Positions 1,808 to 15,284 of a DNA stretch of 35,364 bases are shown here, piece after piece. The notes under the pieces are model-generated. The model was not told the origin of the DNA and searched no databases. It saw only the letters and a list, made by a program, of their open reading frames with translations. Both the position numbers and the translations under genes were made by a program. The DNA is taken from the IMG/VR virus record IMGVR_UViG_3300042473_001001, positions 1 through 35,364 of that record, one strand, 5' to 3'. The DNA is from a virus. The first letter of the stretch is position 1. Every line of letters starts with the position of its first letter.

Positions 1808-1810
1808 GGT

Positions 1811-1929
1811 ATAACGTTTTGCGTATTGGCGTTGTTGCCAACACGAATGTCAAATTGAAAAAATAAATTTAAAATATATGGAAAATTTTGAAGTAAAAGA
1901 ACAAGGCAATAACGCTAATACGCTGTTAT
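1811..1929. repeat. Inverted-repeat spacer element 1
   Basis: The left arm (1811-1839) begins ATAACGTTTTGCGTATTGGC and ends GTTGCC. The right arm (1905-1929) is its near-complement, GGCAATAACGCTAATACGC then TGTTAT. The ends follow the pattern TAACGTTTTGCG ... CGCTGTTA that recurs in element 2. The left arm also holds a small hairpin, TTGGC-N6-GCCAA. The start of the ORF at 1878 lies in the loop between the arms. Confidence 0.7.
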
Positions 1930-2081
1930 CGGCAGTTAAATTAGCTTATCGCCAATACAAATCTGATTTAGATTATGTAAAGAACAAAAGCAATATATGG
2001 GAAGGTAAACCTTATAGATGGGGGTTAACTCATTTAGCAATCGCTAAACATAGATTTTATTGGTTTGTGATTAAACGTTAA
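1878..2081 (+). CDS. Small cassette ORF starting inside a repeat element
   Basis: This 67-residue frame starts in the centre of the inverted-repeat element and reads out through its right arm, so residues around GNNANTLLSAV are repeat-encoded. The unique part is basic and aromatic (KPYRWGLTHLAIAKHRFYWF). The stop falls at the start of the right arm of the body repeat. It has an A-rich leader (TTTAAAATATATG) typical of Bacteroidota. Whether it is a functional protein is uncertain; the repeat-derived N-terminus would be shared by other copies of this element elsewhere. Confidence 0.45.
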   Translation: MENFEVKEQGNNANTLLSAVKLAYRQYKSDLDYVKNKSNIWEGKPYRWGLTHLAIAKHRFYWFVIKR

Positions 2082-2091
2082 TTGCCGATAA
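1926..2091. repeat. Inverted repeat bounding cassette body 1
   Basis: TTATCGGCAGTTA at 1926-1938 is the near-complement (12 of 13) of TAATTGCCGATAA at 2079-2091. These arms flank the unique part of the ORF at 1878 and lie just outside elements 1 and 2, so body and spacer elements alternate. Confidence 0.65.
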
Positions 2092-2215
2092 CGTTTTGCG
2101 TGTATAAGAAGTGGCGGATTATAACCCCAAAACTTTCAGTAAGCACAAAGCTTAATTAGAATTACAAAACTTTAAATTAACCGAGAACCCGCCATTTATT
2201 ATACACGCTGTTAGT
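2088..2215. repeat. Inverted-repeat spacer element 2
   Basis: The left arm (2088-2117) begins ATAACGTTTTGCGTGTATAA and ends GTGGCGG. The right arm (2189-2215) begins CCGCCATTTATTATACACGC and ends TGTTAGT. The arms are complementary apart from a few bulged bases. The terminal motifs are those of element 1 while the inner stem differs. No convincing ORF lies inside it. Confidence 0.75.
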
Positions 2216-2484
2216 GGCTGGGCTTTTCACAAACTTAAAAATATGAGCAAGTTACCTTCGTTTAAATACAAAAAAATGATTTTTAACAATGTAAAAGACA
2301 ACTTATTTCAAACAGATAGGTTTGGAGATAAATTAATTTACAAATTTGAAAATGGAAAATATCATTTAGTTAAAGATGAAAGATTATCTTCTGTAATACC
2401 TTTGTCAGAATGCACAAATAATCCACAGAGCTATGCAAATGATGATAATTGGTGGAAGTAGGTTTCTTTTAGCCTTGCCACTAA
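2211..2484. repeat. Inverted repeat bounding cassette body 2
   Basis: TTAGTGGCTGGGCTTTT at 2211-2227 is matched in reverse by TTTTAGCCTTGCCACTAA at 2467-2484; the outer eight bases (GCCACTAA) and an inner AGCC are complementary. The pair encloses exactly one short gene (2243-2461). Confidence 0.6.
2243..2461 (+). CDS. Hypothetical cassette protein
   Basis: A 72-residue protein that fills the body between two inverted-repeat arms. It is basic at the N-terminus (MSKLPSFKYKKMIF) and ends in an aromatic, acidic tail (YANDDNWWK). The start is preceded by AAACTTAAAAAT, an A-rich leader. No family recognised. Its position as the only gene inside a repeat-bounded unit suggests a recently gained accessory gene. 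Confidence 0.55.
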   Translation: MSKLPSFKYKKMIFNNVKDNLFQTDRFGDKLIYKFENGKYHLVKDERLSSVIPLSECTNNPQSYANDDNWWK

Positions 2485-2517
2485 CGTACAATTATATGAA
2501 CTTAATGTATTACAATT

Positions 2518-4286: not shown

Positions 4287-4529
4287 ATGTTGGAGGAAAT
4301 CAAACAATTAGTACTTAAAAAGAAGCTAGGAATCGACATAGAAACTCCAGTAGATGCTTTATTATTCATTCCATTAAATAAGAGAAAAAAAGGTAGGGAA
4401 AGGGTCAATTACGAGCCAGTAAAAATACTTCGAGTAAATTTATCTAATGCAGAAGAAATATTGTATTTGATAGAAACAGAAAATGGCACTCGAAAATATG
4501 TAGAATCTCAAATGGTAAAAACTTTATGA
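4287..4529 (+). CDS. Hypothetical small protein
   Basis: An 80-residue protein, basic in the middle (LNKRKKGRERVNYEPVKILR) and strand-rich at the C-terminus, whose stop overlaps the NinG-like start by four bases (ATGA), implying translational coupling. No family recognised. Confidence 0.5.
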   Translation: MLEEIKQLVLKKKLGIDIETPVDALLFIPLNKRKKGRERVNYEPVKILRVNLSNAEEILYLIETENGTRKYVESQMVKTL

Positions 4530-5053
4530 AAAAAGAACCAAAGCCTAAAAAATGCGCTATTTGCGAAAGTGAATTTTATCCTAGAAACAGCCTTCAAAAA
4601 GTTTGTAAATGGGAATGTAGCACAAAGTACGCAAAAATAAAGCAAGCCCAAAAAGAAAAAGCTCAAAAAATAAAGGAACTATTAACGAATAAAGATTATA
4701 TCAAATTAGCTCAAAATGTAGTAAATGCTTATATTCGAGAAAGAGACAAAGGATTGAATTGCATATCGTGCGATAAACCAATAAACGGAGTCAAACACGC
4801 CTCACATTATATTGCAGCCTTTGCCCACGCTAATATTCGATTCCACGAGGATAATATTTGGGTGTCCTGCTACAAATGTAATGTAATGTTAAGCGGAAAT
4901 CAATTAGAATATCGAAAAAGATTGATTAAAAAGATTGGAGTTGATAGAGTGGAATGGCTTGAAAATAATGCACATATTCCAAAGAAATATTCAATTGAAG
5001 AGCTTAAAGAAATAATTGATATTTATAGAAAAAAAATTAAGGAATTAAAATAA
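4526..5053 (+). CDS. ninG: NinG/Rap-like recombination protein
   Basis: This 175-residue protein has an N-terminal four-cysteine zinc ribbon (C10, C13, C27, C31), a lysine-rich helix (KIKQAQKEKAQKIKELL), and a second Cys/His-rich region that includes LNCISCDKP, a HASHYIAA segment and SCYKCNVMLSGN. That is the architecture of the NinG (lambda Rap) family, which binds branched DNA and assists Red-type recombination. Length and order fit the family, which is about 200 residues in lambdoid phages. Its place behind the annealing protein gene supports the call. The start overlaps the upstream stop by four bases. Confidence 0.8.
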   Translation: MKKEPKPKKCAICESEFYPRNSLQKVCKWECSTKYAKIKQAQKEKAQKIKELLTNKDYIKLAQNVVNAYIRERDKGLNCISCDKPINGVKHASHYIAAFAHANIRFHEDNIWVSCYKCNVMLSGNQLEYRKRLIKKIGVDRVEWLENNAHIPKKYSIEELKEIIDIYRKKIKELK

Positions 5054-5058
5054 AAAAA

Positions 5059-5562
5059 ATGGGAAATATAGAAATTTGGATGGATATACAAGGGTACGAA
5101 GGACTTTATCAAGTGTCCAATATGGGAAATGTTAAAAGCTTAAATTACAGAAACACTAAAAAAGAAAAAATACTAAATTTAGGAAAAAGCACGAAGGGAT
5201 ACCCACAAGTGCAACTAAATAAAAACGGTTTTGCTAAAACATTTAGTGTACACCAATTAATAGCTATTGCTTTTTTATATCATAAACCTAATGGCACTCA
5301 AAAAATCGTAGTTGATCATATAAATAATATTAAAACTGACAACAGACTTGAAAATCTACAACTAATAAATAGCAGGGAAAACAATACAAAAGATCAAAAG
5401 GCTGGAATAAGTAAATATGTAGGCGTTACTTTTAATAAAGTTGTAAATAAATGGCATAGTAGAATAACAAACGAAAATAAAACAAAACATTTAGGATATT
5501 TTGATACTGAAATTGAAGCACACGAGGCATACCAAAGGGCATTAGCAGAAATAAATTGTTAA
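5059..5562 (+). CDS. NUMOD4-HNH-AP2 homing endonuclease
   Basis: Three modules are visible in 167 residues. The N-terminal NUMOD4 motif reads IWMDIQGYEGLYQVSNMGNV. The central HNH_3 nuclease reads SVHQLIAIAFL, then VVDHINNIKTDNRLENLQLI, with the catalytic His and Asn residues present. The C-terminal AP2-type DNA-binding part contains GISKYVGVTFNKVVNKWHS and a final helix EAHEAYQRAL. Such genes spread as free-standing homing endonucleases in phages. No intron or interrupted gene is seen around it. All expected motifs look intact, so it may be active. Confidence 0.9.
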   Translation: MGNIEIWMDIQGYEGLYQVSNMGNVKSLNYRNTKKEKILNLGKSTKGYPQVQLNKNGFAKTFSVHQLIAIAFLYHKPNGTQKIVVDHINNIKTDNRLENLQLINSRENNTKDQKAGISKYVGVTFNKVVNKWHSRITNENKTKHLGYFDTEIEAHEAYQRALAEINC

Positions 5563-14687: not shown

Positions 14688-15284
14688 ATGGAAGATGTAA
14701 AAAATGAAAATTTGCCATATCTTAATTTATCATTAGTTAATTTACCTAATGAAGAGTGGCGTGATTGTATTGGTTACGATGGACAATATTCTGTTTCTAA
14801 TTATGGAAGGGTAAGGAGTGAAGAGAGATATTGTAGTGCAGGCCGTCTTATCAAAACTAAAATATTAAAGCAAAATATAGGGTCAAATGGTGAGCCAACA
14901 TTAAAATTTGCTAATGAGTATGGTAAAAAAACAAAAAGGGTTTTAGCATTAGTAGGAGAGGCTTTTTTAGGTGAAAAAAAAGAGGGACATCAATATTGTA
15001 GAAAAAATAAAAATAAAAAAGATAGTAGATTAGAAAACATAATAATTACAACAGTTTCTGAAAGTAGGAAAATAGGTGTTAAAATAGGAGTGAATTGGGA
15101 TTGGGGAATTGGAACATTATCAAGGGATATAAAAAGAAATAGATCTAAGGTATTTGACGTATTCGATGATGGACAATTAGTTAGAAGAATATGCAATAGA
15201 TGTTTTAAAGAATTAGATATTAATCAATTTTATTACAGAAGTGACAATAAAGAATATAGATGGGACTGTAAAAAATGTTTTTAA
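14688..15284 (+). CDS. NUMOD4-containing HNH endonuclease-like protein
   Basis: A 198-residue protein. It starts with a polar leader, then a NUMOD4 motif (NEEWRDCIGYDGQYSVSNYG followed by RVRS). The HNH-like region reads HQYCRKNKNKKDSRLENIII, where intact relatives have xDHINxxKxDNRxxNL; the usual DH is replaced by HQ, so activity is doubtful. The C-terminus is a four-cysteine zinc ribbon (CNRCFKELD ... DCKKCF). It has its own promoter and sits between a tRNA and two lipoprotein genes, a common landing place for mobile endonuclease genes. It is not closely similar to the endonuclease at 5059 outside NUMOD4. Confidence 0.75.
   Translation: MEDVKNENLPYLNLSLVNLPNEEWRDCIGYDGQYSVSNYGRVRSEERYCSAGRLIKTKILKQNIGSNGEPTLKFANEYGKKTKRVLALVGEAFLGEKKEGHQYCRKNKNKKDSRLENIIITTVSESRKIGVKIGVNWDWGIGTLSRDIKRNRSKVFDVFDDGQLVRRICNRCFKELDINQFYYRSDNKEYRWDCKKCF

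Follow-up and report, generated by a model that had tools for sequence, protein, structure and literature searches.

Hairpin-separated gene cassettes in a viral genome record point to an integron-like gene-capture system of Bacteroidota and their phages

The DNA analysed here, referred to as the window, is a virus record of 35,364 nt that encodes terminase, exonuclease and recombination genes; among the cultured-phage records searched, those resembling its first 6 kb, mainly Flavobacterium and Polaribacter phages, did so over short stretches only. It contains an array of two cassettes without a recombinase gene (Table 1). A first-pass annotation had described two spacer elements with matching ends and differing inner stems, together with outer inverted repeats around each gene body, all of which was borne out: the direct repeats ATAACGTTTTGCGT (1811–1824 and 2088–2101) and ACGCTGTTA (from 1920 and from 2205) are exact, the inner arms measure 19 nt in hairpin 1 and 23 nt in hairpin 2, and the bodies are enclosed by GTTATCGGCAGTTAA/TTAATTGCCGATAAC (1925–1939/2078–2092) and GTTAGTGGC/GCCACTAAC (from 2210 and from 2477). 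The proposed limits of the spacer elements (1811–1929 and 2088–2215) required correction to those listed in Table 1, while the ORF reported to start within a spacer does begin inside hairpin 1. Folded as single-stranded DNA, hairpins 1 and 2 both surpassed 200 of 200 shuffled sequences (z of −3.5 and −3.7, respectively), and no hairpin was predicted at the terminal half-site at 2482. Body 2 is enclosed by the four-base barcodes GTGG and CCAC, and in L008 and other phage contigs its gene is preceded by a different gene. A PHROG search returned no match for the product of either cassette gene. The terminal half-site occupies the place of attI in recombinase-bearing phage arrays; in the window no recombinase follows it, and comparison of the window ORFs with the recombinase family described below identified no homologue. 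Elsewhere in the window, ORFs at 4526–5562 and 14688–15284 resemble homing endonucleases of the HNH/NUMOD type, the former overlapping a stretch similar to HNH genes of Polaribacter phages.

Table 1. Features of the two-cassette array in the window (R1, covariance model of the site family)
Feature	Position	Strand	Remarks
Upstream half-site, left array boundary	1808–1816	+	Barcode GGTA (1808–1811) and TAACG core
Cassette site (attC-like hairpin) 1	1812–1928	+	TAACG and TTTT spacer, arms 1821–1839/1905–1923, T and GTTA; R1 match 83.3 bits, E 5e-16
Putative mobile unit 1 (hairpin and gene body)	1812–2088	+	By analogy with exact indel units of cultured phages
Cassette gene 1, 67 aa	1878–2081	+	Hairpin 1 encodes the start codon and N-terminal leader MENFEVKEQGNNANTLL
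Barcode TCGG, start of body 1	1929–1932	+	Pairs with CCGA at 2085–2088
Barcode CCGA, end of body 1	2085–2088	+	
Cassette site (attC-like hairpin) 2	2089–2213	+	Arms 2098–2120/2186–2208; R1 match 132.8 bits, the site being itself a member of the R1 model
Putative mobile unit 2	2089–2481	+	Similarity to L008 and other phage contigs begins at TAACG and stops at CACTAACG
Cassette gene 2, 72 aa	2243–2461	+	Translation identical in L008
Terminal half-site	2478–2486	+	Barcode CCAC and TAACG (2482–2486), no hairpin, then TACAATTATATG

The search for paired ends that the annotation had proposed recovered 74 stretches from IMG/VR, whose contigs may include misassigned bacterial DNA (the cultured Unahavirus genomes considered below are independent of that), and at least 120 from bacterial genomes, with lengths packed at 124–130 nt. 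The chance expectation for the viral set is approximately 3 by a uniform-base estimate, and the pattern is not due to chance; among the genome matches listed, most were from Bacteroidota or Ignavibacteria/Chlorobi lineages. The sites of this family, of approximately 126 nt, are built like an attC, i.e. as an imperfect palindrome with outer and inner boxes and an unpaired central spacer, in which structure is conserved over sequence. In an alignment of 52 diverse sites, 97.1% of cells were paired as against 67.1% after shuffling, doubly changed cells numbered 333 as against 91, and compensatory changes were present in 19 of 25 pairs, a covariation signal that disappeared when one arm was slid by a single column. 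TAAC and GTTA are constant, these being the search anchors of the site set, while a G.T pair in the stem (columns 38/136) is invariant though not an anchor, and 96% of sites keep a T at the seventh base ahead of TAAC. Five bases, often GTTTT, is the usual length of the 5′ spacer, and the 3′ spacer is mostly a single T; in a search for extrahelical bases, which set strand choice in integrons, this constant 5/1-nt asymmetry and the invariant G.T pairs were the only features found. The annotation's view that attC core boxes are absent did not survive, as the TAAC/GTTA core is in place and a free 4-nt barcode takes over only the RRRY positions of GTTRRRY; the complete R-box consensus (GTTRRRY/RYYYAAC) occurs in 15 of 360 sites (4%).

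The R1 covariance model derived from this family was used for later site searches. It matched at least 63 of 117 randomly drawn Bacteroidota species (E ≤ 1e-6), or at least 64 of 118 if the species used as centre is included, figures from one genome per species which are lower bounds, as 25 candidates were scored per genome. Shuffle comparisons on loci chosen by pattern were replaced by neighbourhood, random-sample and permutation tests.

Exact gain and loss of single units was observed in cultured Flavobacterium psychrophilum phages (Unahavirus), whose backbones are almost the same and in which the regions examined hold 35 R1 sites. Phage 2A contains an 895-bp unit (L269:4959–5853, a hairpin and gp48) that is absent from FPSV-F7, and the flanks of the two phages at the joint are 100% identical over 1200 bp on the left and 360 bp on the right. 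At the same TAACG that bears the 2A unit, FPSV-D15 possesses two extra units (931 bp). Neither of the window's two cassettes is present in its relatives, one of which (L263) has a cassette lying between the homologues of two genes that are direct neighbours in the window. Neighbouring copies have different genes between them, and near-identical phages differ by the exact presence or absence of single units, the two properties on which the annotation had made its cassette idea depend. These findings support the integron-like cassette format that it had suspected in flavobacteria and their phages; as in integrons, an array strings together single genes, most of them different, and these are gained and lost precisely.

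The boundaries of the bodies obey a simple rule. In nine arrays, the four bases that follow GTTA are fully complementary to the four that precede the next TAAC in 88 of 90 bodies, where permutation predicts 6.1, while the two flanks of a single hairpin match in only 4 of 84 cases. Barcodes that match across the body and not across the hairpin would follow if a single cassette owns both R″ and R′ and these separate on its insertion, as they do in integrons, where the R″ and R′ of one site derive from one cassette and its ends pair across the body.

The annotation saw no recombinase, which is true of the window; in related platforms of genomes and phages a recombinase adjoins the array. A true IntI scored above the family cut-off in one of 29 cassette-bearing genomes, with none of these sites beside it, and IntI was accordingly rejected as the driver. 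In nearly all of the other genomes the best match was a tyrosine recombinase of approximately 345–580 residues that aligns to the IntI model (TIGR02249) in two blocks, below cut-off. As these blocks lie 19 residues apart rather than 61 as in IntI4 (2a3v), the IntI-specific insert, the additional domain of integron integrases, is absent. A 347-residue member, modelled at a pLDDT of 79, has XerA (Z 22.6) and IntI4 (Z 21.3) as its closest folds; a PDB match of the N-terminal region to the designed propeller Tako8 was ignored, as it did not pass on its own. In a tree with SH-aLRT support values only, in which the branching order of IntI and recombinase clades carries no firm support, the platform recombinases group with IntI (one subclade with a support of 100) and apart from XerC/D-type enzymes (SH-aLRT 100), and thus do not cluster with the chromosome-dimer recombinases XerC and XerD.

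These recombinases are closely associated with the sites, 49 of which were found around platform recombinases and none around 13 other tyrosine recombinases. The random Bacteroidota sample yielded 27 strong recombinase loci, of which 24 were counted (one lies at a contig end and two fall outside the count), and in all 24 side and strand agree, the array lying 3′ of the recombinase gene with the sites pointing toward it; arrays reach up to 43 cassettes, as beside the recombinase of Flavobacterium sp. AS60 (43 sites in about 31 kb). A shorter recombinase form (approximately 265–280 residues), present in chromosomes and phage contigs, instead has its array 5′ of the gene on the same strand, as seen in nine of nine chromosomal loci with sites; in five of the 14 short-type chromosomal loci (L294, L295 and L298–L300) no cassette site was placed. 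Phage contigs with the short form and an array are L009 (9 sites), L010, L021 (about 20), L022, L028, L030 and L057; complete phage platforms consist of recombinase, attI and up to 20 cassettes. Near the recombinase gene lies a hairpin-less half-site in which the final barcode of the array reappears as its full complement. In chromosomes this attI-like half-site (TAACTTGTATATA or TAACTTACTTATA) mostly lies 82–109 nt after the gene, and in phages (TAACTATTATATA/TAACTATTATATATNC) 55–56 nt before its start in six of seven cases and 47 nt before it in the seventh. Arrays thus start at an attI beside the recombinase gene, as those of integrons do.

The position of the hairpin relative to the gene differs between chromosomes and phages. 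It is 3′ of the gene in 44 of 47 barcode-verified chromosomal bodies and 5′ in 107 of 110 such bodies of phages, which implies that the chromosomal layout is the classical one (gene, then attC) and that phage genes are inverted within the body. An earlier definition of the unit as a hairpin with its downstream gene, cut on the opposite side from integrons, was revised on this basis, as the canonical orientation gives body plus attC. Additionally, 37 of 103 different phage cassette genes start inside the hairpin, typically 45–63 nt before the body. Phage cassette hairpins (window 1878–1928; L010, L040, L056, L021 and others) often encode a start codon and 15–20 leader residues in frame with different bodies; the leader of window gene 1 (MEN...NNANTLLSAV) is common to L010, where it is fused to another protein. 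Recombination between such sites would be predicted to swap leader peptides as well. The cargo is mostly unrecognised, with Shedu, AIPR, DndB, DNA methylases and GajB-like helicases identified in chromosomes and a methylase, an RNA ligase and YopX in phages.

The family extends to a clinically relevant cassette. The attC of blaVEB scores 50 bits against R1 in class 1 integrons and reaches 58 bits on an Aliarcobacter plasmid (best E 4e-11), on the strand predicted from the chromosomal cassettes, while the attCs of aadB and arr-2 beside it in class 1 integrons gave no R1 match. The cassette ends (G|TTAgcgg ... CCCAAACCG|TTA) are identical in class 1 integrons and the Aliarcobacter plasmid, where the cassette borders on TAACTAGTTTATATGTATGAC, a sequence almost the same as the attI of Flavobacterium denitrificans. 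On plasmids of Klebsiella and Aeromonas, blaVEB-3 is positioned 110 bp behind a 5′-truncated recombinase that is 53% identical to a Flavobacteriaceae one (blaVEB loci: L277:6142–7763, L285:2440–3560, L281, L283 and L284). The blaVEB cassette resembles platform cassettes in the fit of its attC to R1 on the predicted strand and in its location at a platform attI (Aliarcobacter) or behind a truncated recombinase (Klebsiella), yet, unlike them, it has mostly been reported from class 1 integrons, in which its attC performs inefficiently (PMC3518468). The veb1 attC (133 bp) is unusually long and weak with one extrahelical base, and IntI1 recombines it with attI1 only poorly (PMC3518468); these properties are as expected of a foreign site. 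It seems likely from these sequences that blaVEB comes from a Bacteroidota cassette system, a direction of transfer that we infer.

Taken together, the feature in the window is very probably an array of two cassettes belonging to an integron-like system by which Bacteroidota and their phages capture genes. In the mechanism that we propose, the hairpin of approximately 126 nt, folded from single-stranded DNA, would present the TAAC/GTTA core boxes (R-like) and the inner stem (L-like) around the unpaired spacer, and the IntI-related tyrosine recombinase without the IntI-specific domain would cut at the TAAC/GTTA core. It may thereby excise or insert one body with one hairpin, presumably through a circular intermediate, at another hairpin or at the attI-like half-site beside its own gene. 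The barcode at both body ends would represent the mobile portion of the R box, which moves with the cassette and hence finds its match across the body rather than across the integrated hairpin. On chromosomes, the genes point away from the recombinase and are followed by their hairpin, as in the classical layout, and in phages the gene is inverted in the body, placing the hairpin 5′, where it would often supply the start codon and leader peptide. The window array was presumably filled in trans by a host or phage recombinase.

Points that count against an integron-like reading are the missing IntI domain, the rarity of GTTRRRY, the want of a recombinase in the window and the weak recombination by IntI1 of the veb1 attC, the putative family member that has been studied best, such that the two enzymes may not be equivalent. 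It was considered whether such arrays are ordinary integron debris (CALINs, at least two attC sites without an integrase), i.e. normal attCs moved by a classical IntI from elsewhere with the adjacent recombinases as bystanders. The topology of the sites is that of an attC, integrase-less attC clusters are known in phages, including a Polaribacter phage (PMC9892861), and the blaVEB attC is recombined by IntI1 (PMC3518468); the window fits in layout, but its sites fail GTTRRRY, as do 96 in 100 of the family. We regard this explanation as improbable, given that the one true IntI among the cassette-bearing genomes has no such sites at its locus, that position, strand and attI are constant beside the IntI-like recombinase, that the canonical attCs of the same class 1 integrons do not match R1, and that standard searches with IntegronFinder gave only In0 and one complete integron in Bacteroidetes (PMC9024848).

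General homologous recombination between the conserved ends could likewise shuffle phage cassettes with no dedicated enzyme for arrays such as that of the window, which would agree with the want of a family recombinase in the window and with none being evident in the annotated Unahavirus regions examined. However, the indels are exact at five to six shared bases while the hairpins differ, the barcode rule would not be expected, and other phages carry both enzyme and attI, making this slightly less probable still. That the elements are non-mobile hairpins (terminators, REP/BIME-like repeats or MITE/IS200-IS605-type ends) is scarcely credible: they are indeed AT-rich stable hairpins between genes, but no transposase partner accompanies them, their length is fixed, their stems covary around invariant mismatches, and the barcode rule, the arrays of different genes and the exact gene-plus-hairpin indels contradict such an interpretation.

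The integron-like system preferred here shares with integrons (IntI/attI/attC; class 1 and sedentary chromosomal) the single-gene cassettes, the hairpin sites, the split of R″ and R′ between cassette ends, the predicted cut at G|TTA, the attI beside the recombinase gene, the large arrays and an interchangeable blaVEB cassette. It differs in that IntI has a specific insert of approximately 42 residues which the platform recombinase lacks, in carrying GTTA and a free 4-nt barcode in place of the GTTRRRY box, in the length, 5/1-nt spacer and invariant G.T pair of its sites, in the location of attI 3′ of the chromosomal recombinase gene, and in the inverted gene of phage cassettes. The system works like an integron yet fails two defining tests (the IntI-specific domain and GTTRRRY), and it is therefore not a member by the present definition. 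Xer and XerA enzymes (NF040815, 4a8e, 5hxy) are the best sequence and fold neighbours of the catalytic part of the platform recombinase, but the platform enzymes are linked to cassette arrays rather than dif, fall on the IntI side of the tree and, in the chromosomal form, have an extra N-terminal domain. An 'integron-like' subgroup of simple tyrosine recombinases has been described (Smyshlyaev et al. 2021, PMC8138268), in the description of which we found no insert-less member linked to cassette arrays. The 17 CALINs found among 10,705 phages with IntI-attC models (Qi et al. 2023, PMC9892861) are similar in being attC clusters in phage genomes, with methyltransferase cargo and in virulent phages without an integrase; phages of the present system also bear recombinase and attI. 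As far as R1 indicates, those clusters do not contain the present type of site: the sites described in that study for Polaribacter phage P12002L were considered as a further example and rejected, as their best R1 score (23 bits, E 0.013) is not significant.

We consider it likely, with somewhat less confidence than the assignment of the window array, that these platforms constitute a second, Bacteroidota-centred class of integron, run by relatives of IntI that lack the domain regarded as essential for integron activity, occurring in about half of the species of Bacteroidota and complete in phages, with inverted phage cassettes whose hairpins provide a start codon and swappable leader, and feeding cassettes such as blaVEB into clinical class 1 integrons. 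In the open literature searched, no description of these platforms was found, and the system is apparently undescribed though widespread. Surveys describe integrons as rare in Bacteroidetes, yet the present data suggest a large cassette pool there, unseen because IntI is defined and detected by its extra domain (PMC9668308), such that detectors requiring it would miss these recombinases. Phages that carry a complete platform would serve as cassette vehicles, and anti-phage defence genes are among the contents of chromosomal arrays. Furthermore, recombinases that fall on the IntI side of the tree but lack the insert make the evolution of single-stranded hairpin recombination testable, and the system offers a source hypothesis for blaVEB and its oddly inefficient attC.

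Several further loci are of note. One plasmid of Chryseobacterium (L276:11974–22108) has a recombinase with five cassette sites behind it, representing a plasmid-borne platform. On a Chryseobacterium plasmid, too, a short tyrosine recombinase lies beside an IS91 transposase and is present twice (L275:15138–15917). At G141:C1:754324–757928 the platform recombinase is interrupted by an insertion-like stretch of about 2.8 kb and has cassette sites 3′ of it. An Ignavibacteria MAG encodes a true IntI above cut-off (L197/L217) and has the present sites elsewhere in the same genome (L081), none of them beside the IntI. Finally, one phage contig (L028:242–5122) contains two divergent cassette arrays, one of which ends at a recombinase.
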